A stretch of 64,000 bases of DNA, from the NCBI RefSeq assembly GCF_002005225.1, contig NZ_CP019724.1:5597501-5661500 (forward strand), in the 5' to 3' direction. This stretch comes from Streptomyces pactum (lineage in GTDB: Bacteria; Actinomycetota; Actinomycetes; Streptomycetales; Streptomycetaceae). A program made the translations under genes and the position numbers. The notes below the pieces were generated by a model, which saw only the letters and a program-made list of their open reading frames with translations, was not told where the DNA came from and did no database searches. Below are positions 24,909-36,462 of the stretch, one piece after another; the stretch's first letter is position 1; each line of letters begins with the position of its first letter.

Positions 24909-26414
24909 CTAGCCCCGGCGGATCGTGATCGTCGTCCAGGCGCCGACGTGCACTCGGTCGCCGTCCTGGAGCGGCACCGGCACGAAGGGCTGGATCGGCT
25001 CGTCGCCGCCGTTGACCGTCGTCCCGTTCGTCGAGTTCTGGTCGACGACGGCCCAGCTCCCGTCCGGCTGCTGCACCAGCACCGCGTGCTGGTGCGAGAC
25101 GCCCGGGTCCTCCGGCGGCACCGCCAGGTCGATGTCCGGGGTGTCGCCGGTGGAGTGCCGGCGGCGCCCGATGGTGATCTGGTTGCCGGTGAGCGTGCGC
25201 TGCTGCTCGGGCGAGTACGCGGGCAGGTTCAGACCCGCGGCCTCGGGGCCGGAACGCTGCATCATCGCCATGAAGTAGTCGCGGTCCGGGCCGATGGTCA
25301 CCGACCAGGTCGTCGGCTGCTGGGGCCGCTGCGGCTGCTGTGGTTGCTGCGGGAACCCGTAGCCGCCGCCGGGCGGGGGCGGCGGGGCCTGGGTGGCGCC
25401 GGGCTGCGGGTAGCCGTAGCCGCTGCCCTGGGCCGGGCCGGGGCCGCCGGGTCCGCCCTGTCCGGTGGACGACGGCGGGGAGAGCACCCAGTCGTCGTCA
25501 CCGCCGCCGAAGGACGGGCCGCCCTGCTGCGGGCGGTTGGTCTCCTGCGGGAAGGCGGGCGGGGCCGGCGGACCGGACTGCTGGTAGCCCTGCGGGGCAC
25601 CCCCGGGTCCACCGGGCCCGGGCGGCGGCGGAACCGGCCGCGACGGGTCGGCACCGAAGTTGGGCGGTGGCGGCGGACCGCCGGGACCACCGGAGTTGAA
25701 GGGGCCGGCGGGTCCATGCGGACCGCCGGGACCGCCGCCCGGACCGCCGGGACCGCCGCCCGGGCCGCCGGGACCGCCGCCCGGGCCGCCGGGACCGCCG
25801 CCCGGACCGCCGGGACCACTGCCCGGACCACCGGGGTTGAAGGGACCAGAAGGCCCATTGGGACCGCCCGGGCCCCCCGGACCGCCCCCCGGACCACCGG
25901 GACCGCCCGGACCACTACCCGCACCGCCCGGCCTCGACGGGTCGCCGCCGAAGGGCGGGCCCGGCGGGATCGGCTCGGCGGGACGGTTCATCTGGGACGG
26001 GCGCGAGCCCTGGTAGTCGTACGAGTCGCCGCCGCCGTACGACGGACCCGCCGGCGGCTGCTGGAAGTGCGGTGCCGGGCCACCGGACGCCGGCGGGCGC
26101 GGGGCGGCCGGGGTGTACGAGGTGGCGGTGTTGGTGAGGAAGTTCCACCGGCACTCCTCGCAGAACGGCGCCCCGCCCTCACGCGGCGTGCGGCACTGCG
26201 GGCACAACTGCGGTTCGGCACCGGGACGGCCGGGGCCACCGGGACCGCCGCCCGGTCCACCGGGACCGCCCGGTCCACCGGGCGGCGGGAAGCCGTAGCC
26301 GCCGCCCGGGGGCGGAGGCGGGGGAGGGGGCGGGACGGCACCGGCCATGCGGTGACCGCAGACCTCGCACCAGTCGTCGGAACCCGACTGGTGTCCGTTC
26401 GGGCAGGTCGGCAT
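24909..26414 (-). CDS. zinc-ribbon/FHA-domain phosphoprotein reader, Gly-Pro-rich linker
   Basis: The 501-aa protein ends a seven-gene signalling operon. The N-terminus is a small zinc ribbon (CPNGHQSGSDDWCEVCGHRM), and a second one lies near residue 100 (LCPQCRTPREGGAPFCEECRW). A ~250-residue Gly/Pro/Gln linker has many GGPGGGP units. The C-terminal FHA domain (~400-500) has ITIGRRRHSTGD, VSHQHAVLV and NSTNGTTVNG, the phosphothreonine-binding Arg, Ser-x-x-His and Asn signatures. In mycobacteria the PknG substrate GarA/OdhI is an FHA protein, so this is the best candidate effector of the kinase encoded upstream. A short phosphorylatable N-terminal motif of the GarA type was not found, so it is not simply GarA. 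Confidence 0.85.
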   Translation of the reverse strand: MPTCPNGHQSGSDDWCEVCGHRMAGAVPPPPPPPPPGGGYGFPPPGGPGGPGGPGGGPGGPGRPGAEPQLCPQCRTPREGGAPFCEECRWNFLTNTATSYTPAAPRPPASGGPAPHFQQPPAGPSYGGGDSYDYQGSRPSQMNRPAEPIPPGPPFGGDPSRPGGAGSGPGGPGGPGGGPGGPGGPNGPSGPFNPGGPGSGPGGPGGGPGGPGGGPGGPGGGPGGPGGGPGGPHGPAGPFNSGGPGGPPPPPNFGADPSRPVPPPPGPGGPGGAPQGYQQSGPPAPPAFPQETNRPQQGGPSFGGGDDDWVLSPPSSTGQGGPGGPGPAQGSGYGYPQPGATQAPPPPPGGGYGFPQQPQQPQRPQQPTTWSVTIGPDRDYFMAMMQRSGPEAAGLNLPAYSPEQQRTLTGNQITIGRRRHSTGDTPDIDLAVPPEDPGVSHQHAVLVQQPDGSWAVVDQNSTNGTTVNGGDEPIQPFVPVPLQDGDRVHVGAWTTITIRRG

Positions 26415-26461
26415 GTCGGAGCTTCCCCCTCTTGCGGGCTTGTGGAGTGTGTTGTCCTGCG

Positions 26462-27844
26462 TCACTTCTTCACACGAACAGTCTTCGTCGACCGGGTCTC
26501 GAGAGTCATCTCGTCGGCCTCCTCGACCTTCGCTTTCAGTCGCACAGTACCTTCCGCCGCGTCGACGACGTCCACCACCTTCGCAAGCAGTTTCGCGGTA
26601 TCCGCGTTTCCGGAGGCCCCGGCGAGCTGAACCGCACGGCCCAGTTTGGCCGTTGCTCCGTCGATGTCTCCCGCTTTGCGCAGATCCAGCCCCTGTTGGA
26701 TGACCTGTGCCAGTTCGGCCTGCCCGGTGTAGTGGGCCACTTGCGGGTTGATCGACGTGGAAGCGGCCATGTCGTCCGTCCACACGGCCCGTACGAGACC
26801 CTGCGCGCCGAGGTTTCGGACGCTGCCTCCGCCACTCTCGGCTTCGCTCGAGCGGGAGGTGCCCCCAGGCTCCGGAATGACCAGGGAGACGCGGGCGGCC
26901 AGCATCTCCTGGCCGAGGCCGGCGGCCGGTACCTCCACGCAGACGTGGTAGTCACGGGACTCGTCGCCCCAGGAACCGGTGGGGTAGTCCCCGGCGCGCG
27001 GGCCCGCCTCGGTGCGGCGGCCGGTCAGCTCCTCGACCGTGGGAGCGACCTGCTTGACGAACTTCACGGTGGTGCCGACGGGGGTCCACAGGCGCAGGCC
27101 GACGTCCGCGACCTCCTTGCCCATGGCCGTCTCCATCATCCGCGTGAAGTCGGCGGCGAGGCCGGCCGGGTCGGCGACGATGTCGGCGGTGCCGAGCAGG
27201 GCGGAGGCGATCCCTGTGACTTCTTTCACTTCCCAGTCGGTGCCCACGCCGCGGGCGTCGCAGGTGAACCGCCCGGCGCAGGAGTCGAGCGCCGCCTTCA
27301 GATCCTCCGGCGACTCGTGCTCGTTGCGGCCGTCGGTGAGCAGGATGCCGTGCCGGATGGCGACGTCCGCGGTGGACAGCAGCCGGTCGGCCAGTCGCAG
27401 CCAGGTGCCGATGGCGGTGCCGCCCCCCGCGCTCAGCCTGCGCAGCGCCTGCTTGGCCTGCTCCCGGGTGGTGGCGTCGGCGACCGCGAGCCGGCCGTCG
27501 CCCGGGTAGACCTCCTTGGCCACGTGCGTGCCGCCGACCACCGCGAAGCGCACGCCGTCGCGCAGGGTGTCGATCGCGGCGGCCGTCGCGTCGCGGGCGT
27601 TGCGCATCTTGGTGGGCGGGTAGTCCATCGAGCCCGAGCAGTCGACCAGGACGGCCACGGCCGCGGACGGACCCTGGCCCGGCGAGTACAGGTGGGGCGC
27701 GGCGACCGCGCTCCCGATCGTGCCGCCGCCGGTCGCGGTGACCGTCACGATGGCGTTGACCTCGCGGCCGCCCTCGGGCAGGTACTCGTTCTGGTAGACG
27801 TCCACCGAGAACTGCGGCACGTTCGACTTCGAGAAATTGGCCAT
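26462..27844 (-). CDS. VWA-domain protein (TerY-like)
   Basis: The 460-aa cytoplasmic protein has a beta-rich N-terminal region (FSVDVYQNEYLPEGGREVNAIVTV). A von Willebrand factor A domain follows with an intact MIDAS motif (VLVDCSGSMDYPPTK, D68-x-S70-x-S72), GGTAIGTWL and ILLTDGRNEH. The C-terminal half is beta-rich, then ends in a helical TPR-like segment (QVIQQGLDLRKAGDIDGATAKLGRAV). In TerY-P triads a VWA protein is encoded with a PP2C phosphatase and a kinase, as seen here. Its role would be metal-dependent scaffolding. The ATG of MANFSKS is preferred, as the four earlier residues are not conserved-looking. Confidence 0.85.
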   Translation of the reverse strand: MANFSKSNVPQFSVDVYQNEYLPEGGREVNAIVTVTATGGGTIGSAVAAPHLYSPGQGPSAAVAVLVDCSGSMDYPPTKMRNARDATAAAIDTLRDGVRFAVVGGTHVAKEVYPGDGRLAVADATTREQAKQALRRLSAGGGTAIGTWLRLADRLLSTADVAIRHGILLTDGRNEHESPEDLKAALDSCAGRFTCDARGVGTDWEVKEVTGIASALLGTADIVADPAGLAADFTRMMETAMGKEVADVGLRLWTPVGTTVKFVKQVAPTVEELTGRRTEAGPRAGDYPTGSWGDESRDYHVCVEVPAAGLGQEMLAARVSLVIPEPGGTSRSSEAESGGGSVRNLGAQGLVRAVWTDDMAASTSINPQVAHYTGQAELAQVIQQGLDLRKAGDIDGATAKLGRAVQLAGASGNADTAKLLAKVVDVVDAAEGTVRLKAKVEEADEMTLETRSTKTVRVKK

Positions 27845-27961
27845 GCCGGATCGCATCCCCCTCTACGTCCCCACGGTGGTGGGTCGATGGCTGCTGGCGC
27901 GGACCGCCCCCTGCGGCCCGCGAGACCGCCGCGCGTGCGTGCCCGTACCCGTGCGGGGGCC

Positions 27962-29416
27962 TCAGGCCGATCCTGCCCCCTGCGGCGGGGCCGGGAACGG
28001 CAGGAGGGCCACTGTTACGTTGTCGTGGCCCCCGCCGTCCAGGGCGTGGCCGACCAGAACGCGGGCGCTGTGCAGGGGGCGCGTGGCGGCGTCGAGGGGC
28101 ACGGCCTCGGCCATCTCCTCGGCGGACTCGGCGTAGTTCCACAGGCCGTCCGTGCAGACCACGACCACGCCCGGGCGGTCCGGCTTGAACGACGCGGTGT
28201 GCGGCTCCAGTTCGTAGGCGTCGGCGCCGAGCCAGCCGGTGATCGCGTGGGCGCGCTCGTCGGCGTACGCCTCGGCCTCGCTCATCAGCCCGGCGGCGAC
28301 CATCTGCGCGGCCCACGAGTCGTCCTCGGTGAGCCTGGCGGGCGGGGTGCTGCGGTCGACCGGAACCCAGTAGACGCGGCTGTCGCCGACCCAGCCGACG
28401 ACCAGCAGCCCGGACGTCACCACGGCGCCGACCAGGGTGCAGGCGGGCGCGTTCTGGTGCGGGGCCTGCTCGCGGGCGGTGGCGGGCTCGTCCGCCAGCG
28501 CGTCGACGGCGTGCGAGGCGGCGATGATGGCGTCGTGCATGGCCTGCTGCGGGTGGGTGCCGCGCGGCAGGGCAGCGAGCAGCGAGTCGCCGGCCGCCCG
28601 GGACGCGGCGAGCGAGGCGTCGTCGGGACGGGTCGCGGAGGACACGCCGTCGCAGACGATCGCCACGGACGCCGGGGCGCCGTCGGGCAGCGCGGTGCAG
28701 CCGACGGAGAACGCGTCCTCGTTGCGGTGGTGGCGCAGGCCGCGGTCACTGACGGCGGCGACGGGGCCCGACTCCTGCTCCATGTGGTCGCGTTCGCGGG
28801 GCTGGGCGTGTCCGCAGTTCTCGCAGTAGCCGTCGTCGTCGACCCGGCCCGCACGGCAGGCCACGCACACCTTGTCGCCCGCGGCCGGTGCCGCCGGCCG
28901 GGCGGGTGCCTGCGGCCCGGCGGCCAGCCGCGGGTCGGGTGCCTGAAGCGGGTACTCCTCGGGCTCCCGCGGCCGGTCGGGACCGTCGGGCCGGTCGGGC
29001 CGGTCGAACCGTACGCCGGGCGCGGGTGACTCCGGCGGCGCCGCCGGCATCGGCGGTGCGGCAGGCGGGGCCGCTGCCGGGGGTGCGGTCGGCGGAGCCG
29101 GTACCGAGGGTGCGGCCGGCGGGGTCGGTGGCAGCGGGGAGCCGCCCGAGTCGGTGCCCGGCACCTCGGCCGCGTGCGCCGGGGCGGTCCGGCCGGAGCC
29201 GTCCGAGTCCCGGGCCACGGGCCAGTCCACGCCGTCCGGCGGCGAAGACGGCGCGGGTACCGAGCCGTTCATGGCGATCGTCGGGCTGTCGTCGGGCCGC
29301 GCGGGCACGGCGGACAGGTCGTATCCGCACGCACCGCAGAAACGGTCGCCCGACTCGAGGGGTTCCTCGCAGCTCGGGCACTTCGACACAGCGGCCTGCT
29401 GGGGCATCTGCGACAT
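27962..29416 (-). CDS. PP2C-family Ser/Thr protein phosphatase with two zinc ribbons
   Basis: The 484-aa enzyme should dephosphorylate substrates of the adjacent PknG-like kinase. Residues 13-31 are a zinc ribbon (CPSCEEPLESGDRFCGACG), residues ~40-180 a Pro/Ala-rich linker, and residues 184-202 a second ribbon (CVACRAGRVDDDGYCENCG). The PP2C domain (~217-475) keeps the metal-binding motifs: SDRGLRHHRNEDAF, VCDGVSS, VVVCTDGLWNYAE and GGHDNVTVAL. There is no membrane segment. The ATG at 29416 lies 3 bp after the kinase stop; an adjacent in-frame TTG is ignored. Confidence 0.9.
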   Translation of the reverse strand: MSQMPQQAAVSKCPSCEEPLESGDRFCGACGYDLSAVPARPDDSPTIAMNGSVPAPSSPPDGVDWPVARDSDGSGRTAPAHAAEVPGTDSGGSPLPPTPPAAPSVPAPPTAPPAAAPPAAPPMPAAPPESPAPGVRFDRPDRPDGPDRPREPEEYPLQAPDPRLAAGPQAPARPAAPAAGDKVCVACRAGRVDDDGYCENCGHAQPRERDHMEQESGPVAAVSDRGLRHHRNEDAFSVGCTALPDGAPASVAIVCDGVSSATRPDDASLAASRAAGDSLLAALPRGTHPQQAMHDAIIAASHAVDALADEPATAREQAPHQNAPACTLVGAVVTSGLLVVGWVGDSRVYWVPVDRSTPPARLTEDDSWAAQMVAAGLMSEAEAYADERAHAITGWLGADAYELEPHTASFKPDRPGVVVVCTDGLWNYAESAEEMAEAVPLDAATRPLHSARVLVGHALDGGGHDNVTVALLPFPAPPQGAGSA

Positions 29417-29419
29417 CAA

Positions 29420-32158
29420 CTACACCCACGTCCGGGGGCGGTAACGATTGGCACGTTCCACCAGGTCGATCCTCTCCTCGCCGCCCCGCGCCAGCCGAGC
29501 CAGCGTGCGGTACGAACGTTCCAGCCCGAAACGCAGGCCGCGTTCGTCCAGGCCGCTGCCGAGCAGCGTCCGTCCCCCGGCGGCGGGTGGGACGGAACCC
29601 CGACCTCCGGAGAGTACCCAGTCCAGCGCGCAGCCGAGGACCTCGGCCGACAACCGCTCGCGCCGTGCCGGATCCAGACCGTACACGTCCAGGGCCTCGA
29701 CCTGCCGCGCGGCGGCGACCAGATCGTCCAGGAACGCCACGTCGCCCGCGCTCGCCGTGCGCTGCCGCAGCCGTGCCCGTACGGCCGCCACGCGCGCGGC
29801 CGTGCAGTGTACGGACGACTCCGGCACCGACTCCAGCGTCCGTACGGCACCGGTCCGGTCGCCGCCGCCGAGCTGTACCCGGGCCAGTCCGAAGGCCGCG
29901 CTCACATGGCTCGGGTCGGTCGACCACACCAGGCGGTAGTACTCGGCCGCGTTGTCGAGCTGTCCCAGCACCTCCGCGCACAGGCCGAGCGCCAGCTTGG
30001 GCGCGATCTCGCCCGGGAAGGCGTCGTAGACCGCGTCGAAGGCCAGCGCGGCGACCTCGTGGTCCCCGGTCACCAGCGCGGCCAGCCCCCGGTACCAGAC
30101 CACCCGCCAGTCGTCGGGCCGCTCGTCCTCCAGGCTCTCCAGTTCCGCCAGCGCGCCGGGCGCGTCGCCGCTCTCCAGGCGGGCCCTGATCTGCCGCAGC
30201 CGGGACTCGGTCGACGGGGCCGGCGCGGCGGCCAGCGCGGTCAGCAGCTCACCGGGCGCGGACGCCATGAGGCCCGCCAGGAAACCCGCGTTGGGGTCGC
30301 CCGCGTCGACCCGGGGCACCGGAAGCGCCAGGGCGGCGGTGGGCGCGTCGGCCGGTTCGACCAGGCCGGAGGAACCGGCGCCGAGCTCACCGGCGGCACC
30401 GGGCCCGCCGATCGCGCCGACCGTGCTCACCGCACCCGGCAGCGTGGCGCTCGCGCCCGTTCCACCCGGCCCCTGCCCGGGTCCTGCGCCCGTCCCGCCA
30501 AAGGCTCCGAGCGCCGTGCCGCCAGGCGCCCCGAAACCCGTCCCGCCCGGCGCCCCGACCGCCGCGTTCGTCCCGCCCGGCAGCGCGGGGCCGGTGCCCG
30601 CGCCGCCGGGCCGCCGAGCCGGCGACGAGGCGGCGCCGCTTTGTCTCGTGCCCGGCGCCCGGGCCCCCAGCCGCGACACGTTGCCGTCCAGCCGCGGGAA
30701 CAACTCGGTGTCCGTCACCCTGACTTCCGGCCCGAACAGCGTGGACACGGCGGGCCGGGCGCGGCCCGACTGGAGCGAGACCACCTCACGCAGCACGCCC
30801 GTCAGTTGCTCCGCCATCTCCTGCGCGGAGGCGAACCGGCGGGCCGGGTCGGGGTCGGTCGCGCGCACCAGCAGCCGGTAGAACGACTCGTACCGGTGGA
30901 AGACGTCGATCGTGTCGGGATCCGGCAGGGAGTCGGCGTAGACGTTGGTGTAGCCCTGGAAGTCGAAGGTCAGCACGGCCAGGGCGCGGCCGACGGTGTA
31001 CAGGTCGGACGCCACCGACGGTCCGACGTCGGCGACCTCCGGCGCCTGGTAGCCCACCGTGCCGTAGATGGCCGACTCCTCGTCGTCCATCCGGCGCACC
31101 GCGCCCATGTCGATCAGCTTGAGCTGGTCCTCGGTCTGGATGGCGTTGTCGACCTTGAAGTCGCAGTACAGCAGGTTGCGGCTGTGCAGGTGGCCGAGCG
31201 CCTCCAGCGCCTCGATGCCGTACGCGCAGGCCTGCTCGACCGGCAGCGGGTCGCGCCGGCCCTCGGGGGAGCGCCGTGCGTTGGCGATCTCCTTCAGCGA
31301 CTTGCCGCCGACGTACTCCATGACGATGTAGCCGTCGAGGGAGCCGGTGCGCTGGTCGAGGTGCTCGACGAAGTTGTAGATCCGCACGATGTTGGCGTGC
31401 TCGATCTCGGCGAGGAAGCGGCGCTCGGAGATGGCCGCCGCCATCGCGTCCTGGTCGCCGGTGTCCAGCAGGCCCTTGAGGACCACCCAGCGGTCGGAGA
31501 CCGCCTTGTCCACGGCGAGGTAGATCCAGCCGAGCCCGCCGTGCGCGAGGCAGCCCACCACCTCGTACTGGCCGTGCACGACGTCTCCGGCCTTCAGCTT
31601 GGGCACGAACGAGTACGGGTGGCCGCACTTGGTGCAGAAGCCCTCCGTGCGCCCCGGCCGCTCCCCGCGGGCCCGCCCGACCGGCGCCCCGCAGTCCGAG
31701 CGCGAGCAGAATCGCTTCCGCTCGGGTACCTCCGGATGGTCCAGGACCATCGCGCGCGGGTCGGGCCGCGGGATCGCCGGGACCTCGACCAGGCCGGCAC
31801 CGAGGCGCCCGCGCGCGGAGGAACCGGCCGGGGAGCCCGAGCTGCGCACCGACACCGACCGGCCCGTCGACCGGCCCGACACCGACCGCGAGAGCCGCCC
31901 CGACACCGAGCGCCGGGACTTCGACGACTGCGACGACGTACGCGAACTGCGGCTGCCGGAGCGGGAACCGCCGCTGCCCGCCGAGCCGCGCGAGCCCCGG
32001 CCGCCGCCGGTGATCCCGGTCGGCGTCGAGCCCACCATGCCGTTGGAGGCGACGACCGGCGCGAGACCGCACGTGTCGCAGTACAGCTCGCCGCCGCCCA
32101 TGTCCTCGTAGGCCCCGCCGCAGCCGGGACGCTGACACGTCCGCTGTGCCTCACTCAT
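29420..32158 (-). CDS. pknG: PknG-type Ser/Thr protein kinase (rubredoxin-kinase-TPR)
   Basis: The 912-aa kinase has the PknG layout. A small zinc site (C8, C13, C27, C30) is followed by a Ser/Arg-rich linker (~50-118), a rubredoxin-like site (CSRSDCGAPV...FCTKCG, C151/C156/C175/C178), then the kinase: GCLAHGGLGWIY glycine loop, K228 in VVLKGL, the atypical catalytic loop YCDFKVDN (D333, N338), LIDMGAV (D350) and GTVGYQAPEV. A C-terminal region follows a Gly/Pro/Ala linker and reads as tetratricopeptide repeats (ALAELESLEDERPDDWRVVWYRGL). The catalytic loop CDF instead of HRD is a hallmark of PknG. The ATG at 32158 was chosen; a 24-residue extension is possible but unsupported. Confidence 0.92.
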   Translation of the reverse strand: MSEAQRTCQRPGCGGAYEDMGGGELYCDTCGLAPVVASNGMVGSTPTGITGGGRGSRGSAGSGGSRSGSRSSRTSSQSSKSRRSVSGRLSRSVSGRSTGRSVSVRSSGSPAGSSARGRLGAGLVEVPAIPRPDPRAMVLDHPEVPERKRFCSRSDCGAPVGRARGERPGRTEGFCTKCGHPYSFVPKLKAGDVVHGQYEVVGCLAHGGLGWIYLAVDKAVSDRWVVLKGLLDTGDQDAMAAAISERRFLAEIEHANIVRIYNFVEHLDQRTGSLDGYIVMEYVGGKSLKEIANARRSPEGRRDPLPVEQACAYGIEALEALGHLHSRNLLYCDFKVDNAIQTEDQLKLIDMGAVRRMDDEESAIYGTVGYQAPEVADVGPSVASDLYTVGRALAVLTFDFQGYTNVYADSLPDPDTIDVFHRYESFYRLLVRATDPDPARRFASAQEMAEQLTGVLREVVSLQSGRARPAVSTLFGPEVRVTDTELFPRLDGNVSRLGARAPGTRQSGAASSPARRPGGAGTGPALPGGTNAAVGAPGGTGFGAPGGTALGAFGGTGAGPGQGPGGTGASATLPGAVSTVGAIGGPGAAGELGAGSSGLVEPADAPTAALALPVPRVDAGDPNAGFLAGLMASAPGELLTALAAAPAPSTESRLRQIRARLESGDAPGALAELESLEDERPDDWRVVWYRGLAALVTGDHEVAALAFDAVYDAFPGEIAPKLALGLCAEVLGQLDNAAEYYRLVWSTDPSHVSAAFGLARVQLGGGDRTGAVRTLESVPESSVHCTAARVAAVRARLRQRTASAGDVAFLDDLVAAARQVEALDVYGLDPARRERLSAEVLGCALDWVLSGGRGSVPPAAGGRTLLGSGLDERGLRFGLERSYRTLARLARGGEERIDLVERANRYRPRTWV

Positions 32159-32180
32159 GACGCTGCCTCCCCCTCGTCGC

Positions 32181-33515
32181 TCATGCGCCGGGCCCCGTGC
32201 GGTCCACCGGCCCGCCCTGACCGGGCACACGCGGGGCGGAGCCGAGCAGGGCGGCCGCCGCGTGCTGGTAGCGCAGCACCGCCTGCTCGGCGACGCGCAG
32301 ATCGCAGGGCGCGCTCCACAGCATGCGGCGCGCCTTCTCGTACTTCTCGACCAGCTCGGGATCCTCGGCGAAGCCGAGCCGGGCCATTTTCGCCTTGTAC
32401 GCGTCGAGCCGGCCGCGCAGCTCCGCGCGGACCGCGAGTGGCGCGGTGACCGCCGTCAGCGACTCGCGGGCCCGCAGCAGTTCGTCCTCCGCCTTCTCCT
32501 CCAGCGACTCCAGGAGCGGGGACAGGCGGTGCCACTGAGCGTGTCTGCGGTACTCGGCGGCCGCCGCGAGCTGCTCCTGCAGCACGGTGGGCGGTCCGCT
32601 GACGACCGGCACCTCCGTCGCGGCGATCTTCGCCAGCACCTCGCCGCGTGCGGTGCGGGCCTCGGCGAGCGTACGGTCCGCGCGGGAGAGCACGTCCCGT
32701 AGCCGCACGATCCGCTGCTCCGCGTCCTGGCGCACCGCCAGCACGGCGTCGATCTCGCGGCGCACGTCCTCCAGGGCGCGCGCCTCCCGGTCGTACACCG
32801 TGGTGTCCGGCCGGCCGCCGCCCGGCGCCGAACTGCCCTCGGCGGGCAGCCAGAAGGCGAGCGGGTCGGACACCACCCGCTCGCGCAGCTTCGTCAGGGT
32901 GCGGGTGATCCGCTCCAGGTCGTCACCGGCCGGGTGCTCGCCGGGGCGGACGCCCACGGAGTGCGCGAGGCGGCGGGTGCGCTGGAGTTCGGCGGCGAGT
33001 AAATCGATCCGCGCGGGCAGCGCCGACCACACCGCGTCGGCGGCGACCACCATGTCGAGGGAGGCCGCGTAGAGCTGGTTCATCCGGTCCACCAGCGCCG
33101 CCAGCGAATAGCGCTCGCTGAGCCGGCCCGGTCCGCCGTTCAGAGTGGGCGCGCCGGCCGTGGCGGTGGCGCCGCCGGCCACCGTGACGGCCTCGCCGCG
33201 CAGCAGCTCGGTCAGCTCGGCCAGGTCCTCGCGGCTGGACCAGCGGCGCCGGGAGCGGATCTCCCGGGCCGTGCGCAGCGCGCCCGTGTACGCGTCGAAG
33301 TACGTCCACAGCAGCGTGATCGACGCCTCCGCCGCTGCCCAGCGCTCGCCGGTCACGCCCGTGAGCTCGGCGCCTTCGAGGAGTCTGCGGCCCGCGTGGT
33401 CCTGGAGGGCGAGGAGCGAGGTCTCGACGGCCTCGTGCTCCGCGCCGAGCCGCGCCAGCGCACGGTCCACCTCGTCCCGGTCCATGACCGGCCCGGTGGG
33501 TCCCGTGTCGCCCAT
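32181..33515 (-). CDS. coiled-coil protein of unknown function in the pknG operon
   Basis: The 444-aa protein is almost entirely helical and charged, with coiled-coil stretches (DRDEVDRALARLGAEHEAVE, REIDAVLAVRQDAEQRIV, LDAYKAKMARLGFAEDPELV). It has no signal peptide, membrane helix or zinc motif. It lies between the solute-binding protein and pknG, 22 bp upstream of the kinase. That position suggests a scaffold or adaptor linking the membrane receptor to the kinase; this is inference. A Gly/Ala/Thr loop (GGATATAGAPTLNGG, ~115-130) interrupts the helices. Confidence 0.7.
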   Translation of the reverse strand: MGDTGPTGPVMDRDEVDRALARLGAEHEAVETSLLALQDHAGRRLLEGAELTGVTGERWAAAEASITLLWTYFDAYTGALRTAREIRSRRRWSSREDLAELTELLRGEAVTVAGGATATAGAPTLNGGPGRLSERYSLAALVDRMNQLYAASLDMVVAADAVWSALPARIDLLAAELQRTRRLAHSVGVRPGEHPAGDDLERITRTLTKLRERVVSDPLAFWLPAEGSSAPGGGRPDTTVYDREARALEDVRREIDAVLAVRQDAEQRIVRLRDVLSRADRTLAEARTARGEVLAKIAATEVPVVSGPPTVLQEQLAAAAEYRRHAQWHRLSPLLESLEEKAEDELLRARESLTAVTAPLAVRAELRGRLDAYKAKMARLGFAEDPELVEKYEKARRMLWSAPCDLRVAEQAVLRYQHAAAALLGSAPRVPGQGGPVDRTGPGA

Positions 33516-33573
33516 CGATCACCCCTCGCTGTCGCGGACTTGTAGTGCTCGTTCCCTGCGGTGCGGCGGTCCT

Positions 33574-34623
33574 TCAGCTCGTGCGCAGATACTGCGGCGG
33601 GCTCGGTGGCTCCGACTTCGCCGCGTCGTCCATCGTCTCCGACAGCCACTCGTCGTACGAGTGCTGCCACCCCCCGGCCTTGTCCGCGCGCCACTCCACG
33701 AGGATCTGGTTGACCCGGCGTACCAGATCGTCGGCGTCCTTCTTCATCGCCACGCCGTAGTACTCGGTGGTGAAGGCGTCGCCCTTCAGTTCGACCGTGG
33801 GGTCCTGTGCGGCCTGGCTCGCGGCGAGCGCGCCGTCGGTGACGACCGCGTCGACCTCGCCGAGCTGGAGCCGCACCAGGCAGTCCAGTTGGTTGGGCAC
33901 GGTGGTGCCGAGGTCGGCGTCGGCGGCCAGTTCGCCGTCCGACTGGTCCTGTTCGAGGGTGCTCAGCGCCGTCGAACCCGCCGCCGTGCAGATCTCCCGG
34001 CCGGCCAGCGTGCCGTCGTAGCCGGTGATGTCCGAGGACTTGGGCGCCAGCACCTGCTGGCCGGTCCTGAAGTAGGGCGCGGAGAAGGCGACGTCCTCCA
34101 GGCGGTCGCAGTTGATGGTCATCGTGCGGACCACCATGTCGACCCGGCCGTCCTGGATCGCGGGGATGCGCTGGTCGGTGGGGATCGCCTTGAACTGCAC
34201 GGCGTCCGGGTCGCCGAGGATGTCCTCGGCGATGCGGTGCACCAGGTCGATGTCGAAGCCCGCCAGCTCGGCGTCGCCGCCGTTGTTCGGGTCGCGGTAG
34301 CCCCAGCGGTAGCTGTTCTGGTCGACGCCGACGACCAGTTGGCGCTTCTCGCCCTCGCGGCTCTGGATCTCGTCGATGGTGGGGCCGTCGGCGTCGTCCG
34401 GGGACAGGGTCTGCTTCTCCGGGTCCGTGCACTCCTCGGCGGCGCGCGCCCGGCTGCCGTGGGCGACGCCGTGGCCGCCGCCGGTCCCCGTGCCGCCGTC
34501 CTCGCCGTGCGAGCGGACCACCGGCAGGAGCAGGGCGAAGAGCACGGCGAGGACGCAGGCGACGGCCATCGCCCCCACCCCGCCCCAGCCCCTCAGGCCG
34601 GCCCGCAGTCGTCGTGCACGCAT
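33574..34623 (-). CDS. membrane-anchored amino-acid-binding protein (GlnH-like, SBP_bac_3)
   Basis: The 349-aa protein has one N-terminal membrane helix (VGAMAVACVLAVLFALLLPVV) and no C-terminal lipobox, so it is a signal anchor, not a lipoprotein. The extracytoplasmic part is a family 3 solute-binding domain: RQLVVGVDQNSYRWGYRDP, GFDIDLVHRIAEDILGDPDAVQF, MVVRTMTINCDRLEDVAFSAPYF, then EVDAVVTDGALAAS. In mycobacteria, GlnH senses aspartate/glutamate and acts through GlnX on PknG. Here the same three families occur in the same operon. The ATG at 34623 has GGAAGGAGGAG upstream; no ABC permease or ATPase is encoded nearby, supporting a sensing role. Confidence 0.85.
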   Translation of the reverse strand: MRARRLRAGLRGWGGVGAMAVACVLAVLFALLLPVVRSHGEDGGTGTGGGHGVAHGSRARAAEECTDPEKQTLSPDDADGPTIDEIQSREGEKRQLVVGVDQNSYRWGYRDPNNGGDAELAGFDIDLVHRIAEDILGDPDAVQFKAIPTDQRIPAIQDGRVDMVVRTMTINCDRLEDVAFSAPYFRTGQQVLAPKSSDITGYDGTLAGREICTAAGSTALSTLEQDQSDGELAADADLGTTVPNQLDCLVRLQLGEVDAVVTDGALAASQAAQDPTVELKGDAFTTEYYGVAMKKDADDLVRRVNQILVEWRADKAGGWQHSYDEWLSETMDDAAKSEPPSPPQYLRTS

Positions 34624-34682
34624 CCTCGCTCCTCCTTCCACGGGTACTCCTCCCCACCCGTCAGCCGGTTCGGCGCCCCGCC

Positions 34683-36149
34683 TCACCGGTACTCCGAGAG
34701 CCTGCGGCCGATACCCAGCAGAGCGCCGGCCGCGCCGAGCCCGGCGAGGACGCCGGCGCCCTGCGGCAGGTAGCCCATCGCGTCCAGGCCGTCACCCGCC
34801 GCCCGCTCGAACTCCCGCTCCTCGTGGGCGAGGGCGGCGGCCAGCGAGGAGTCGACGCCGTCGAAGCACTCGACCGTGGGCTCCACCCCGCTGTCCCCGC
34901 CGCCGATCACCAGGTCCAGCGCCTGCTGGTAGTTGCCGTTCGCGTCCTGCTCGCGGGCCGCCGAGTGGCGCTTCTTCCACTCCGCCATGTCGCCGTTCGC
35001 CGCCGCGACCGGCCGCTCGCCCGCCTCGTCGTCGGCGAGCCGGGCCGCCTGGGCCAGGCCCTTGCCGAGTGCGTCCATGTTCTTCTCGAACTCGAAGTCG
35101 TAGGCGTCGAACGTCTCGTCGCCGACCTTCGTGGTCTCCGCGCCGCGCGCCACCAGCGTGAGGTTCTCGTTGCCCCGGGCCTTGAGGGAGGCGATGCGCG
35201 CGTCGTGCAGCACGTTCAGCGAGCGCACGCCGTGGTCGTAGGAGTCGCCCAGGTTCGACCGCGCGACGCTGTGGCCGACGACCAGCCAGAGCAGGACGAC
35301 CGTGGCGGCGGCCGTGGCGGCGACCAGGCCGTGGTTCAGTACCCGGTTGGTGCGCCGGTAGTTGCGGTGCTGCGCCCAGGCGAGGGCGGCGAGCGCGAGG
35401 ACGCCGAGGGCCAGCGCGGCCCAGGGGTAGGGCCTGGCGTCCGCGTAGTCGGCGCGCAGTCGCCTGTTCTCCGTCTTGTAGAGGTCCTCCGCCGCCGGGA
35501 GCATCTCCTTCTGCATCTTCTCGTTGGCGTAGCGCAGATAGGCGCCGCCGACCGGGAAGCCCTGGCGGTTGTAGGTGCGGGCGCGCTCGACGAGGCCCTT
35601 GTACTCGGGCAGGAGACGGTTGAGCTTGGTGATCGTCGCCGTGGAGGAGGAGTCGGCGTCGGAGTCGGCGGCGGCCTTCACGAGCCCTTCGGCGGCCGTG
35701 CGGACGCCCTTCTCGTACCGGTCCCGGGACGCCTCGGTCTCCTGGCCGCCGGCCAGGAACCCGCTGGAGGCCGCGGTGTTGGCGTCGGCGAGGGAGCGGT
35801 AGATGTCGGCCGCCTCCGAGGTGAGCGGCTGGCTGCGGTGCAGCACGTCGTCGGCGGCCTGGGACCGCGCGTTCATCTGCCAGGCGGTGACGGTGCCGAA
35901 GGCGACGACGAGCGCGGCGAGCAGCGCGCCGATGATCCGCAGCCGCCCGGGCTCGGTGACGGCCGCCGCGCGCAGCCGGTCCAGGCCCTCGGCGAACGCG
36001 GTGCGGCGGGGCTCCGAGGGCGGCGGCCCGGCGGGGGCGCCGCCCGGCCGCCGCCGGGGCACCGGTCCGGCCTGCGGCGGTACGGCGGGCAGGGTGGGCG
36101 AGCCCGTGCCCGGCGGTGGCGCCGCGCTGCCCTTCGGCGGTTGAGTCAC
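34683..36149 (-). CDS. four-helix membrane sensor protein (GlnX-like)
   Basis: The 488-aa protein begins at a GTG with GGGGGAGG 6 nt upstream. After a Pro-rich cytoplasmic N-terminus (~60 aa) it has TM1 (IIGALLAALVVAFGTVTAW). An extracytoplasmic helical domain follows (~100-250; QAADDVLHRSQPLTSEAADIYRSLADANTAAS), then TM2 (WAALALGVLALAALAWA) and TM3 (LVAATAAATVVLLWLVVG). A second extracytoplasmic helical domain precedes TM4 (GAGVLAGLGAAGALLGIG). Two four-helix-bundle sensor loops fit GlnX. It is the first gene of the signalling operon and lies 59 bp upstream of the GlnH-like gene. There is no kinase or HAMP output domain, so the signal must pass to a partner, plausibly PknG. Confidence 0.8.
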   Translation of the reverse strand: MTQPPKGSAAPPPGTGSPTLPAVPPQAGPVPRRRPGGAPAGPPPSEPRRTAFAEGLDRLRAAAVTEPGRLRIIGALLAALVVAFGTVTAWQMNARSQAADDVLHRSQPLTSEAADIYRSLADANTAASSGFLAGGQETEASRDRYEKGVRTAAEGLVKAAADSDADSSSTATITKLNRLLPEYKGLVERARTYNRQGFPVGGAYLRYANEKMQKEMLPAAEDLYKTENRRLRADYADARPYPWAALALGVLALAALAWAQHRNYRRTNRVLNHGLVAATAAATVVLLWLVVGHSVARSNLGDSYDHGVRSLNVLHDARIASLKARGNENLTLVARGAETTKVGDETFDAYDFEFEKNMDALGKGLAQAARLADDEAGERPVAAANGDMAEWKKRHSAAREQDANGNYQQALDLVIGGGDSGVEPTVECFDGVDSSLAAALAHEEREFERAAGDGLDAMGYLPQGAGVLAGLGAAGALLGIGRRLSEYR

Positions 36150-36462
36150 TGCTGACCTCCCCCTGGTCATCCGTCGCCGCAAGTATCGCTGCCCGCACCG
36201 GCATTCGCACCGGCCTTCACCCGATCTTGATCCGAGGCCCGGTGCCAGGACCCGACGCCAAGACCCGGTGCCACGAACCGGTGCCGGGACCCGCTGTCCG
36301 GACCCACCGCATGGATCCGGTGTTCCGAACCGGTGTGCCGACCCGGTCCCTCCGGTCCGGCGTCCCGATCCGGTGCAACGCACCACCCCTGCCCATGAAT
36401 ACGCCACCGGAACCGGTTCGGTTCCCGGAGTCCGGACTTCCGGGGCCGGACCTCACGGCACC
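36150..36462. repeat. upstream region of the pknG operon with degenerate CCGGTG repeats
   Basis: The 313-bp gap between the GlnX-like gene and csnK-like gene is packed with short imperfect repeats of type (ga)(t/c)CCGGTG(c/t), about ten copies spaced 11-25 bp between ~36205 and 36430. It should contain the operon promoter, and the repeated half-sites could be regulator-binding or simply slippage products. Confidence 0.45.

Follow-up and report, generated by a model that had tools for sequence, protein, structure and literature searches.

PknG is of interest both as a virulence kinase and as a control point of glutamate production; its output reported in the accessible literature is GarA/OdhI, and ETTS is the motif surrounding the PknG site in GarA (PMC8546545, accessible text). 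In mycobacteria and Corynebacterium this kinase belongs to the GlnX-GlnH-PknG-GarA/OdhI pathway, with which the locus described here has in common GlnX, a GlnH-type solute-binding protein (SBP), a rubredoxin/TPR PknG and the relative order of these genes. The locus differs from that pathway in adding a coiled-coil protein, a PP2C phosphatase, a VWA protein and a zinc-ribbon FHA protein, in an additional N-terminal zinc ribbon on PknG, and in an SBP that is not an evident lipoprotein and has Gln in place of GlnH Trp232. Within the accessible text of the open-licence PMC literature, we found no description of PP2C, VWA or FHA genes in a pknG operon. The other system of immediate relevance is the ArnA/ArnB switch of Sulfolobus, in which, according to the accessible parts of PMC12852372, PMC6509490 and PMC7472852, the TPR-bearing kinase ArnC phosphorylates ArnB, PP2A removes the phosphates, and ArnA, a zinc-finger FHA protein, reads the phosphorylated C-terminal region of ArnB according to nutrient state. 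We tentatively propose that the operon is a nutrient-controlled threonine-phosphorylation switch, in which PknG and PP2C act on the VWA tail and the FHA protein reads it, a proposal that we regard as quite possible if still short of probable.

The window, a stretch of 64,000 nucleotides from Streptomyces pactum, holds the seven genes as one minus-strand block (24909..36149), which Pfam and NCBIfam matches place in the order GlnX, GlnH-type SBP, coiled coil, PknG, PP2C, VWA and zinc-ribbon FHA. Gene coordinates rest on likely start codons, and the successive gaps are 59, 58, 22, 3, 117 and 47 bp. The gene calls and domain matches bear out the original prediction of seven minus-strand genes spaced by 3–117 bp, and the HMM searches that it suggested, with GlnX, SBP_bac_3, PknG_rubred, PP2C_2, VWA_3 and FHA, all scored over cut-off. 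The 313-bp stretch 5′ of GlnX (36150..36462, minus strand) should carry the operon promoter and contains 12–13-bp repeats; a sigma-70 consensus site was not found in it by a scan that is uninformative at this G+C, and promoter and terminator consensus scans gave background levels.

This arrangement is widespread. Among the PknG matches listed, which occupy 140 places (10 rows that were second fragments or weak matches, all below ~45 bits, being left out of the count), a VWA gene lies within 15 kb in 64, and in 64 of these 64 it is downstream on the same strand. The VWA is missing from 30 of the 31 mycobacterial-type PknG places among the matches listed, where family f3 is called mycobacterial from its GarA and PknG scores. 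Gene order is retained in Streptomyces, Nocardioides, Catenulispora and further families and permuted in one, in which GlnX-GlnH has shifted to the opposite end of the operon with the association kept. Of 80 named Streptomyces loci, 67 have the complete seven and the remaining 13 are interrupted by contig ends; the Catenulispora family f101, which has 10 genomes with a VWA_3_C match, was sampled at 6 loci, and all 6 are complete. The PknG and VWA families were both present in at least 29 of 31 sampled Streptomyces genomes. These orders are based on stop-to-stop frames, and the apparent swaps in 7 of the 67 Streptomyces loci arise because such frames overlap. A set of 34 loci (33 of 60 fetched, plus the window), selected for the presence of PknG, PP2C, VWA and FHA, was kept for comparison; of these, 33 have GlnX, 33 GlnH and 32 the coiled coil, and the sequence of one, L087, ends before GlnX-GlnH. 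The original prediction had joined a GlnX-GlnH-PknG module to a TerY-P-like triad. The two constitute one gene cluster conserved across several families, so the lack of order conservation that was to count against their union is not what was found, and the label TerY-P-like holds as a parts list only.

At the sensor end, GlnX (34683..36149, minus strand) is a GlnX-family transmembrane signal-transduction protein (NF058618, 497 bits, cut-off 250; the narrower equivalog NF041460 gave 170 bits, below its cut-off of 780), and four hydrophobic stretches recognised by eye agree with its description as a four-TM sensor. The next gene (33574..34623, minus strand) encodes the membrane-anchored family-3 SBP that had been predicted, with a match to SBP_bac_3 (93.5 bits, E 1.2e-26), M. 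tuberculosis GlnH 6h1u as top PDB match (142 bits) and a hydrophobic N-terminal stretch, seen by eye, as anchor. Its AVAC is a poor lipobox at best, and a lipobox was absent from 4 of 4 other operon SBPs tried; the mycobacterial SBP compared carries LAGC. In the numbering of M. tuberculosis GlnH of PMC6069109, mapped via alignment to 6h1u, the pocket residues Arg147 and Ser/Thr164 are each found in 38 of 38 aligned SBPs, Arg169 and Asp250 each in 34, Thr162 in 31 and Trp232 in only 3. The coiled-coil protein (32181..33515, minus strand) matches no Pfam or NCBIfam family over cut-off; homologues, present in 32/34 kept loci, share a conserved C-terminal ELRGRLDAY..KA...APCDL segment, and its model is mostly helical (mean pLDDT 66; best PDB match E 0.3).

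PknG (29420..32158, minus strand) has the rubredoxin-kinase-TPR architecture ascribed to it, preceded by an N-terminal zinc ribbon, with PknG_rubred (105 bits), Pkinase (88 bits) and PknG_TPR (286.5 bits) all over cut-off and a score of 554 bits against M. tuberculosis PknG 2pzi. The sequence CDF, which had been taken as a hallmark of the PknG catalytic loop, is not one: M. tuberculosis PknG reads YNDLKPEN and the window kinase YCDFKVDN, and the pattern Y.D[FLYM]K.[DE]N matches 24 of 34 PknG orthologs. The phosphatase (27962..29416, minus strand), correctly recognised as a PP2C (PP2C_2, 49.6 bits, cut-off 24), bears two N-terminal zinc ribbons (Zn_Ribbon_1, 30.1 bits); the patterns [CS].DG[LVI]W and DN[VIA][TA] occur in 34/34 orthologs, and two additional hand-made PP2C patterns in 29/34 and 5/34. 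The last gene (24909..26414, minus strand) encodes a zinc-ribbon FHA protein, as had been claimed, with an FHA domain at approximately 24942–25178 (61 bits, cut-off 20.7) and CxxC/CxxxH ribbons seen by eye, DZR falling below cut-off. Kinase, PP2C and FHA protein thus all carry zinc ribbons, but the single CxxC...CxxC form suggested for them does not hold, the PknG ribbons being C-x4-C...C-x2-C and the first ribbon of the FHA protein C-x3-H...C-x2-C by eye.

The operon FHA reader differs from GarA of the known PknG pathway: it reaches only 20–23 bits against the OdhI/GarA model, whose cut-off is 200. As in the mycobacterial and Corynebacterium pathway, a GarA with ETTS and an FHA core is encoded in the S. 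pactum genome (P0241, G000:C1:7117605; 188 bits, just short of that cut-off), ~1.49 Mb from the operon. A zinc ribbon on GarA was considered as a marker of the extended operon and rejected, since genomes that lack PknG also have the ribbon on their GarA. It is missing in mycobacterial-type loci, f99 (L200) and f6 (L243). The comparison covered 71 loci by means of a fixed pattern that missed 10, of which 9 were inspected and L202 was left out.

The VWA protein (26462..27844, minus strand) belongs to the 4FX5 family and has an ArnB-related fold consisting of vWA, β-sandwich and C-terminal helix bundle, with VWA_3 and VWA_3_C both over cut-off (Pfam/NCBIfam). Its MIDAS is intact, as predicted, D68, S70, S72, T143 and D171 being unchanged in 20/20 aligned VWAs. 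Its closest described relatives are Catenulispora 4FX5 and archaeal ArnB: Foldseek ranks the orthologue 4fx5 first, followed by ArnB itself (chains of 8s05) and its paralogue 5a8j, and among the VIA matches listed only those to 4fx5 (386 residues) and 8s05 (344) start at the N-terminus and reach almost to the C-terminus. The 4FX5 entry is the Catenulispora acidiphila orthologue of the operon VWA and serves as a structural comparison in the accessible ArnAB literature; its gene sits within the same seven-gene operon in that species, so that this PDB entry gains a genomic setting. Identity in the Foldseek match to ArnB is 14%, and ArnB_C (PF18677) gave 0 matches in the S. pactum genome, with a positive S. 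acidocaldarius control, and a domain scan of 20 VWAs detected it in none of them; the VWA is therefore not classed as an ArnB, only as a protein that may work like it. With ArnA/ArnB the operon has in common a vWA, β-sandwich and helix-bundle protein adjoining a zinc-finger FHA protein, a Hanks kinase with a TPR-like part, a phosphatase, a nutrient input and a Thr-rich C-terminal region. It differs in having PP2C where Sulfolobus has PP2A, two ribbons on the FHA protein where ArnA has one RanBP2 finger, a membrane sensor encoded alongside, and a VWA tail that is predicted to be disordered, whereas ArnB phosphosites lie mainly in the helix bundle/helix pair. A bacterial gene cluster is thereby linked to the ArnAB switch, although the authors of PMC12852372, in its accessible text, judge most ArnB-like architectures to stand outside multi-phosphorylation processes.

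The C-terminal Thr tail of the VWA (residues 444–457, DEMTLETRSTKTVR; 26474..26515, minus strand) is a candidate PknG site and FHA ligand, and its motif constitutes a precise prediction. This motif, DEMxL[DE]TxSTxT, is predicted to be disordered (pLDDT under 50) and was found in 34/34 kept loci and 80/80 named Streptomyces VWAs. D444, L448, S452 and T455 are unchanged in 20/20 aligned VWAs, and T450, the counterpart of the GarA site, is Thr in 16 of the 20; the 4FX5 tail has Val at this position. The tail sequence ETRSTKT is similar to ETTSTIS of GarA from the S. pactum genome. A strict pattern, [DE]T.ST.[ST], matched 23/34 VWA tails and 3 of 6 VWAs of the Catenulispora family f101. For the remaining six operon proteins, with 32–34 orthologs compared per protein, it matched none, and it arose in 12 of 5000 shuffled versions of the window VWA; a looser one, [DE][TA].S[TV].[ST], matched 34/34 tails but also 114/5000 shuffles. 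Both patterns were picked after the tail had been inspected, and the Fisher test run with these counts ignores kinship. By the synteny and pattern counts, the PknG/VWA association and the tail motif apparently exceed chance.

The switch proposal draws directly on the gene set, its synteny, the VWA-ArnB fold relation, the conservation and predicted disorder of the tail, and the presence in the genome of a GarA with its motif; we infer every phosphorylation and binding step, as well as which way the response runs and what it leads to. GlnH would bind an amino acid on the outer side of the membrane, and GlnX, by homology and on the model put forward for mycobacteria and C. glutamicum, would relay the state of GlnH inward and shift PknG activity. 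PknG and its dedicated PP2C would then determine phosphorylation of the disordered VWA tail. The zinc-ribbon FHA protein would hold the VWA loosely via its ribbons and tightly via FHA-phosphothreonine contact, as in ArnA-ArnB, and the output would be the VWA/FHA complex, assembled or released; PknG may in parallel still phosphorylate the GarA encoded elsewhere. A phosphatase, a VWA and a second FHA protein from the same operon would supply the PknG pathway with an eraser of its own and with another output besides GarA/OdhI; the organisms concerned include non-pathogenic antibiotic producers. The conservation of the seven-gene operon in Streptomyces and its relatives suggests, more doubtfully, that an older actinobacterial system, with the VWA/FHA complex rather than GarA as its main output, may have been pared down to give the tuberculosis/Corynebacterium PknG pathway. 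Such a complex, of ArnAB type (Sec23/24-core-like), would be assembled via the phosphorylated, GarA-mimicking tail, with outside amino acids controlling assembly and the system's own PP2C resetting it. If so, the archaeal and actinobacterial switches would follow a common plan of nutrient-gated TPR kinase, phosphatase, tripartite VWA and zinc-finger FHA reader.

The operon might instead be an enlarged GarA control unit, in which GarA is the sole protein phosphorylated by PknG and dephosphorylated by PP2C. The VWA tail would then have no regulatory part, and the coiled-coil, VWA and FHA proteins would serve as scaffolds that position PknG and GarA. The intact ETTS of S. pactum GarA is consistent with this, as is the standing of GarA/OdhI as the PknG substrate reported in the accessible literature on mycobacteria and Corynebacterium, and a dedicated phosphatase would close the GarA loop. 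Yet across the class GarA was found in 266 of 296 genomes and PknG in at least 110, so GarA is not dependent on the operon, and the conserved tail and separate FHA protein are left without explanation; we consider this account unlikely, though deserving of weight. Comparison with type VI secretion leads to another account. The threonine-phosphorylation pathway of that system includes the phosphatase PppA and the FHA protein Fha. Its PpkA consists of a kinase and a VWA domain (PMC1262709, accessible text), so that kinase, VWA, PP2C and FHA are common to pathway and operon, and with an outside input the VWA/FHA pair could act as an envelope switch that assembles a membrane or cell-wall machine. 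The operon VWA, however, is a separate 4FX5-type protein rather than one fused to the kinase, and its FHA protein is not of the TagH type (TIGR03354, 31 bits, cut-off 120), which makes this quite improbable.

Still less can be said for a TerY-P-type triad for metal stress or phage defence that happens to adjoin a PknG operon, which we judge very improbable. TerY-P combines a TerY-like VWA with PP2C and with a kinase whose zinc ribbon is C-terminal (PMC11090510, accessible text), and related kinase-PP2C-vWA sets occur in actinobacterial conflict systems (PMC7159879, accessible text); VWA, PP2C, kinase and zinc ribbons are all shared with the operon. The operon kinase, however, has its ribbons at the N-terminus and TPRs at the C-terminus, and TerY_C was detected in 0/20 VWAs by Pfam domain scan at E 0.01, so the parts list behind the name TerY-P-like stands while its domain and kinase architecture do not. 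A TerY_C profile search of 61 relatives gave 0 matches but is uninformative, since its control genomes gave none either. Nothing in the present results points to a role in stress. PADLOC gave no specific match, its hits being kinase-domain matches (25 of 30 of the matches listed) and one weak PP2C match of 13.8 bits, and the presence of the key families in at least 29 of 31 Streptomyces genomes contrasts with the patchiness of defence genes. That some families permute or lose members could also mean that the genes are neighbours with separate jobs, held together by chance or a common promoter; against this, same-orientation association recurs in several families and survives the GlnX-GlnH permutation, and we rate such an explanation as equally remote.

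Several departures from the full gene set weigh against the proposed switch, as do the incomplete conservation of T450 and, in f101, of the strict pattern, the position of the ArnB phosphosites, the PP2A of the archaeal system, the lack of ArnB_C and the view of the PMC12852372 authors. Among VWAs that adjoin PknG without PP2C, the strict tail was found in 0 of 7 (L042, L043, L050, L057, L083, L084 and L085), and L084 and L085 nevertheless possess an FHA gene. Some loci have FHA without VWA and others VWA without FHA; in L052, PP2C and FHA accompany a divergent VWA (131 bits) from which the tail motif is absent. L073 and L081 each carry a PP2C-VWA-FHA set, beside which a scan of 5 proteins gave no kinase. 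Family f78, of Thermomonospora type, retains PP2C and FHA, but a VWA was not found in L068 or L070, that of L067 is without its vWA domain, and that of L064 is a weak remnant, which indicates that the FHA protein works there without an intact VWA.

The seven minus-strand genes claimed in the original prediction are all present, separated by gaps of 59, 58, 22, 3, 117 and 47 bp (gene starts were chosen by the best purine run upstream), in an 8.55 Mb single-contig genome whose VWA protein has its closest relatives among Streptomyces proteins. In the domain scan GlnX matched NF058618 (497 bits against a cut-off of 250), the solute-binding protein (SBP) carried SBP_bac_3, PknG combined PknG_rubred, Pkinase and PknG_TPR, the PP2C protein had PP2C_2 plus zinc ribbons, the VWA protein VWA_3 and VWA_3_C, and the last protein an FHA domain; the coiled-coil (CC) protein matched no family over cut-off. 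The kinase aligned with M. tuberculosis PknG (2pzi) at 554 bits, and M. tuberculosis GlnH was the best solved-structure match of the SBP. Judged by its conserved pocket, the SBP probably senses an amino acid; Asp or Glu is a candidate only, because Trp232 of the GlnH pocket is replaced. Imperfect direct repeats of 12-13 bp lie upstream of GlnX, at 36194-36347 of the window.

VWA_3_C and PknG_TPR, both searched in the same 296 genomes of the class, matched in 76 and 110 of them, respectively. Both families occurred in 72 genomes, VWA only in 4, PknG only in 38 and neither in 182 (Fisher p 2.7e-35, relatedness ignored), and VWA_3_C was found in 0 of 14 control genomes. Among the matches listed, VWA_3_C lay within 15 kb of PknG at 64 of 140 PknG places, every time downstream and in the same orientation. 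Of the 92 VWA places, 28 were without a PknG at that distance, and 27 of these belong to family f79. Streptomyces genomes held both families in 29 of the 31 sampled and neither in the other two (G515 and G547); one of the 29 (G295, 6.1 Mb) carries a decayed operon, L040, with GlnX, GlnH, PknG and VWA in broken pieces. When gene order was mapped over 60 loci with profiles built from the window proteins, GlnX-GlnH-CC-PknG-PP2C-VWA-FHA was found in Streptomyces, Nocardioides (f7), f74, f95, f79 and locus L089 of a mycobacterial-type (f3) genome, and the permuted order CC-PknG-PP2C-VWA-FHA-GlnX-GlnH in f78, which includes Thermomonospora. The proposed synteny across Streptomyces was borne out, all seven genes being present in 67 of 80 named loci and contig ends cutting the other 13. 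Among the 11 genomes searched in the order of f101, the family that holds Catenulispora acidiphila, VWA_3_C was found in all 10 f101 genomes and was absent from the single f100 genome, and all seven genes were present in each of the six f101 loci taken. L245, a locus from a different class within the phylum, carries CC-PknG-PP2C-VWA-FHA, and its GlnH-GlnX pair is encoded on the other strand. Beside the operon of genome G322 (L069:1219-5278) stand two extra opposite-strand ORFs similar to the kinase part of PknG.

In f3, VWA occurs at 1 of 31 PknG places, and the two plain loci mapped (L090, L247) hold GlnX-GlnH-PknG only. The position of the seven-gene L089 in the PknG tree (64 rows), sister to all eight other f3 rows with SH-aLRT 99, together with the spread of the full set through other families, suggests that the three-gene form is a reduced one. 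The reverse history, in which it is not a reduction of the full set, may also apply, as the tree was built by a quick method with a midpoint root and an f99 row (L051) is likewise minimal.

Over its full length the VWA protein is related to 4FX5 (461 bits). 4FX5 is identical over all 440 residues to the VWA of C. acidiphila (G593) and is encoded there inside a seven-gene operon. Foldseek ranked 4fx5 first for the AlphaFold model (25 sequences, mean pLDDT 69), followed by the 8s05 chains of ArnB, the VWA partner of the FHA protein ArnA in Sulfolobus, and then by the ArnB paralogue 5a8j; among the matches listed, 4fx5 and 8s05 alone matched from the N-terminus to near the C-terminus. With full-length rmsd values as high as 17 A, the model is no reliable guide to how the domains are placed, and in a sequence search with the VWA profile the match to 8s05 (E 2.8e-7) is confined to the vWA domain. 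A 2026 paper (PMC12852372) mentions the vWA protein of Catenulispora among structural relatives. The ArnB_C family has no match in the window genome, while the control S. acidocaldarius does match, and it was found in none of 20 VWAs; for this reason we propose an ArnB-like mode of working without claiming the protein to be ArnB.

The VWA protein ends in DEMTLETRSTKTVRVKK, and the tail pattern D[EATS][MI].L[DE][TA].S[TV].T recurs in 34 of 34 loci kept for having PknG, PP2C, VWA and FHA together and in 80 of 80 named Streptomyces VWAs. Across 20 diverse sequences D444, L448, S452 and T455 never vary. Mean entropy over residues 442-456 is 0.95 bits, as against 1.25 for the whole protein; of the other low-confidence stretches, loop 40-59 has 2.38 bits but 267-293 only 1.08. 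Residues 442-460 have pLDDT below 50 and no regular structure, and crystalline 4FX5 probably has a disordered tail, since the structure library holds 426 residues of the 464-residue chain and the alignment stops at 425. Strict fit drops to three of six in f101, where L248, L250 and L252 carry V, M or S substitutions, and in L076 S replaces T450.

ArnB is phosphorylated near its C-terminus by ArnC, and the ArnA/ArnB complex, tight when nutrients are plentiful, dissociates with PP2A, as described in parts of PMC12852372, PMC6509490 and PMC7472852. As the favoured reading, we tentatively propose that the operon encodes an ArnAB-like switch in which PknG and PP2C would set the state of the VWA tail. 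The main rival, judged less likely, holds that control of GarA, the FHA substrate of PknG encoded outside the window, is the sole output. The GlnX-GlnH-PknG amino-acid sensing path is published as conserved in actinobacteria, including Streptomyces (parts of PMC6069109, PMC8546545 and PMC9769921). At its site, GarA of the same genome reads ETTSTIS, and the VWA tail reads ETRSTKT. PMC12852372 places ArnB-like architectures mostly outside multi-phosphorylation processes. Bearing on the tail switch, seven loci in which VWA adjoins PknG without PP2C (L042, L043, L050, L057, L083, L084, L085) lack the strict motif in every case, with a looser S/T-rich end remaining in L043 and L050 and an FHA gene in L084 and L085. 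The tail thus accompanies PP2C in well-conserved loci, in small numbers and with exceptions such as L052, which has PknG, PP2C and FHA and a divergent VWA (131 bits) without the motif; this pairing is expected if PP2C acts on the tail.

No VWA match was found in L065, L066, L068 or L070, although L068 and L070 keep FHA, and L064 has a weak VWA remnant. Between PP2C and FHA, L067:7479-9245 encodes a VWA relative from which only the vWA domain is missing, with beta-sandwich pieces and a Thr-containing C-terminus remaining. Because the ArnAB zinc finger touches the beta-sandwich and C-terminal domain (from parts of PMC12852372), this single locus, by analogy, would have kept the parts that bind. 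PP2C-VWA-FHA sets (L073, L081) and a PP2C-FHA pair (L078) stand with no PknG match alongside, and no kinase was found among five upstream proteins scanned beside L073 and L081; these sets suggest that PP2C-VWA-FHA is a portable cassette.

A second kind of locus (L042, L043, L050, L057, L083) has PknG followed by VWA, without PP2C, and in four of the five a long protein also follows that resembles GlnX weakly and has no Pfam match above the cut-off; a ribbon-like CxxC pair closes the VWA frame in L042, L043 and L050. GarA of the window genome (L091:1318-1851; near 7117605 of G000:C1) has an N-terminal zinc ribbon, as do most non-mycobacterial GarAs examined; those without it are mycobacterial-type or belong to f99 and f6.
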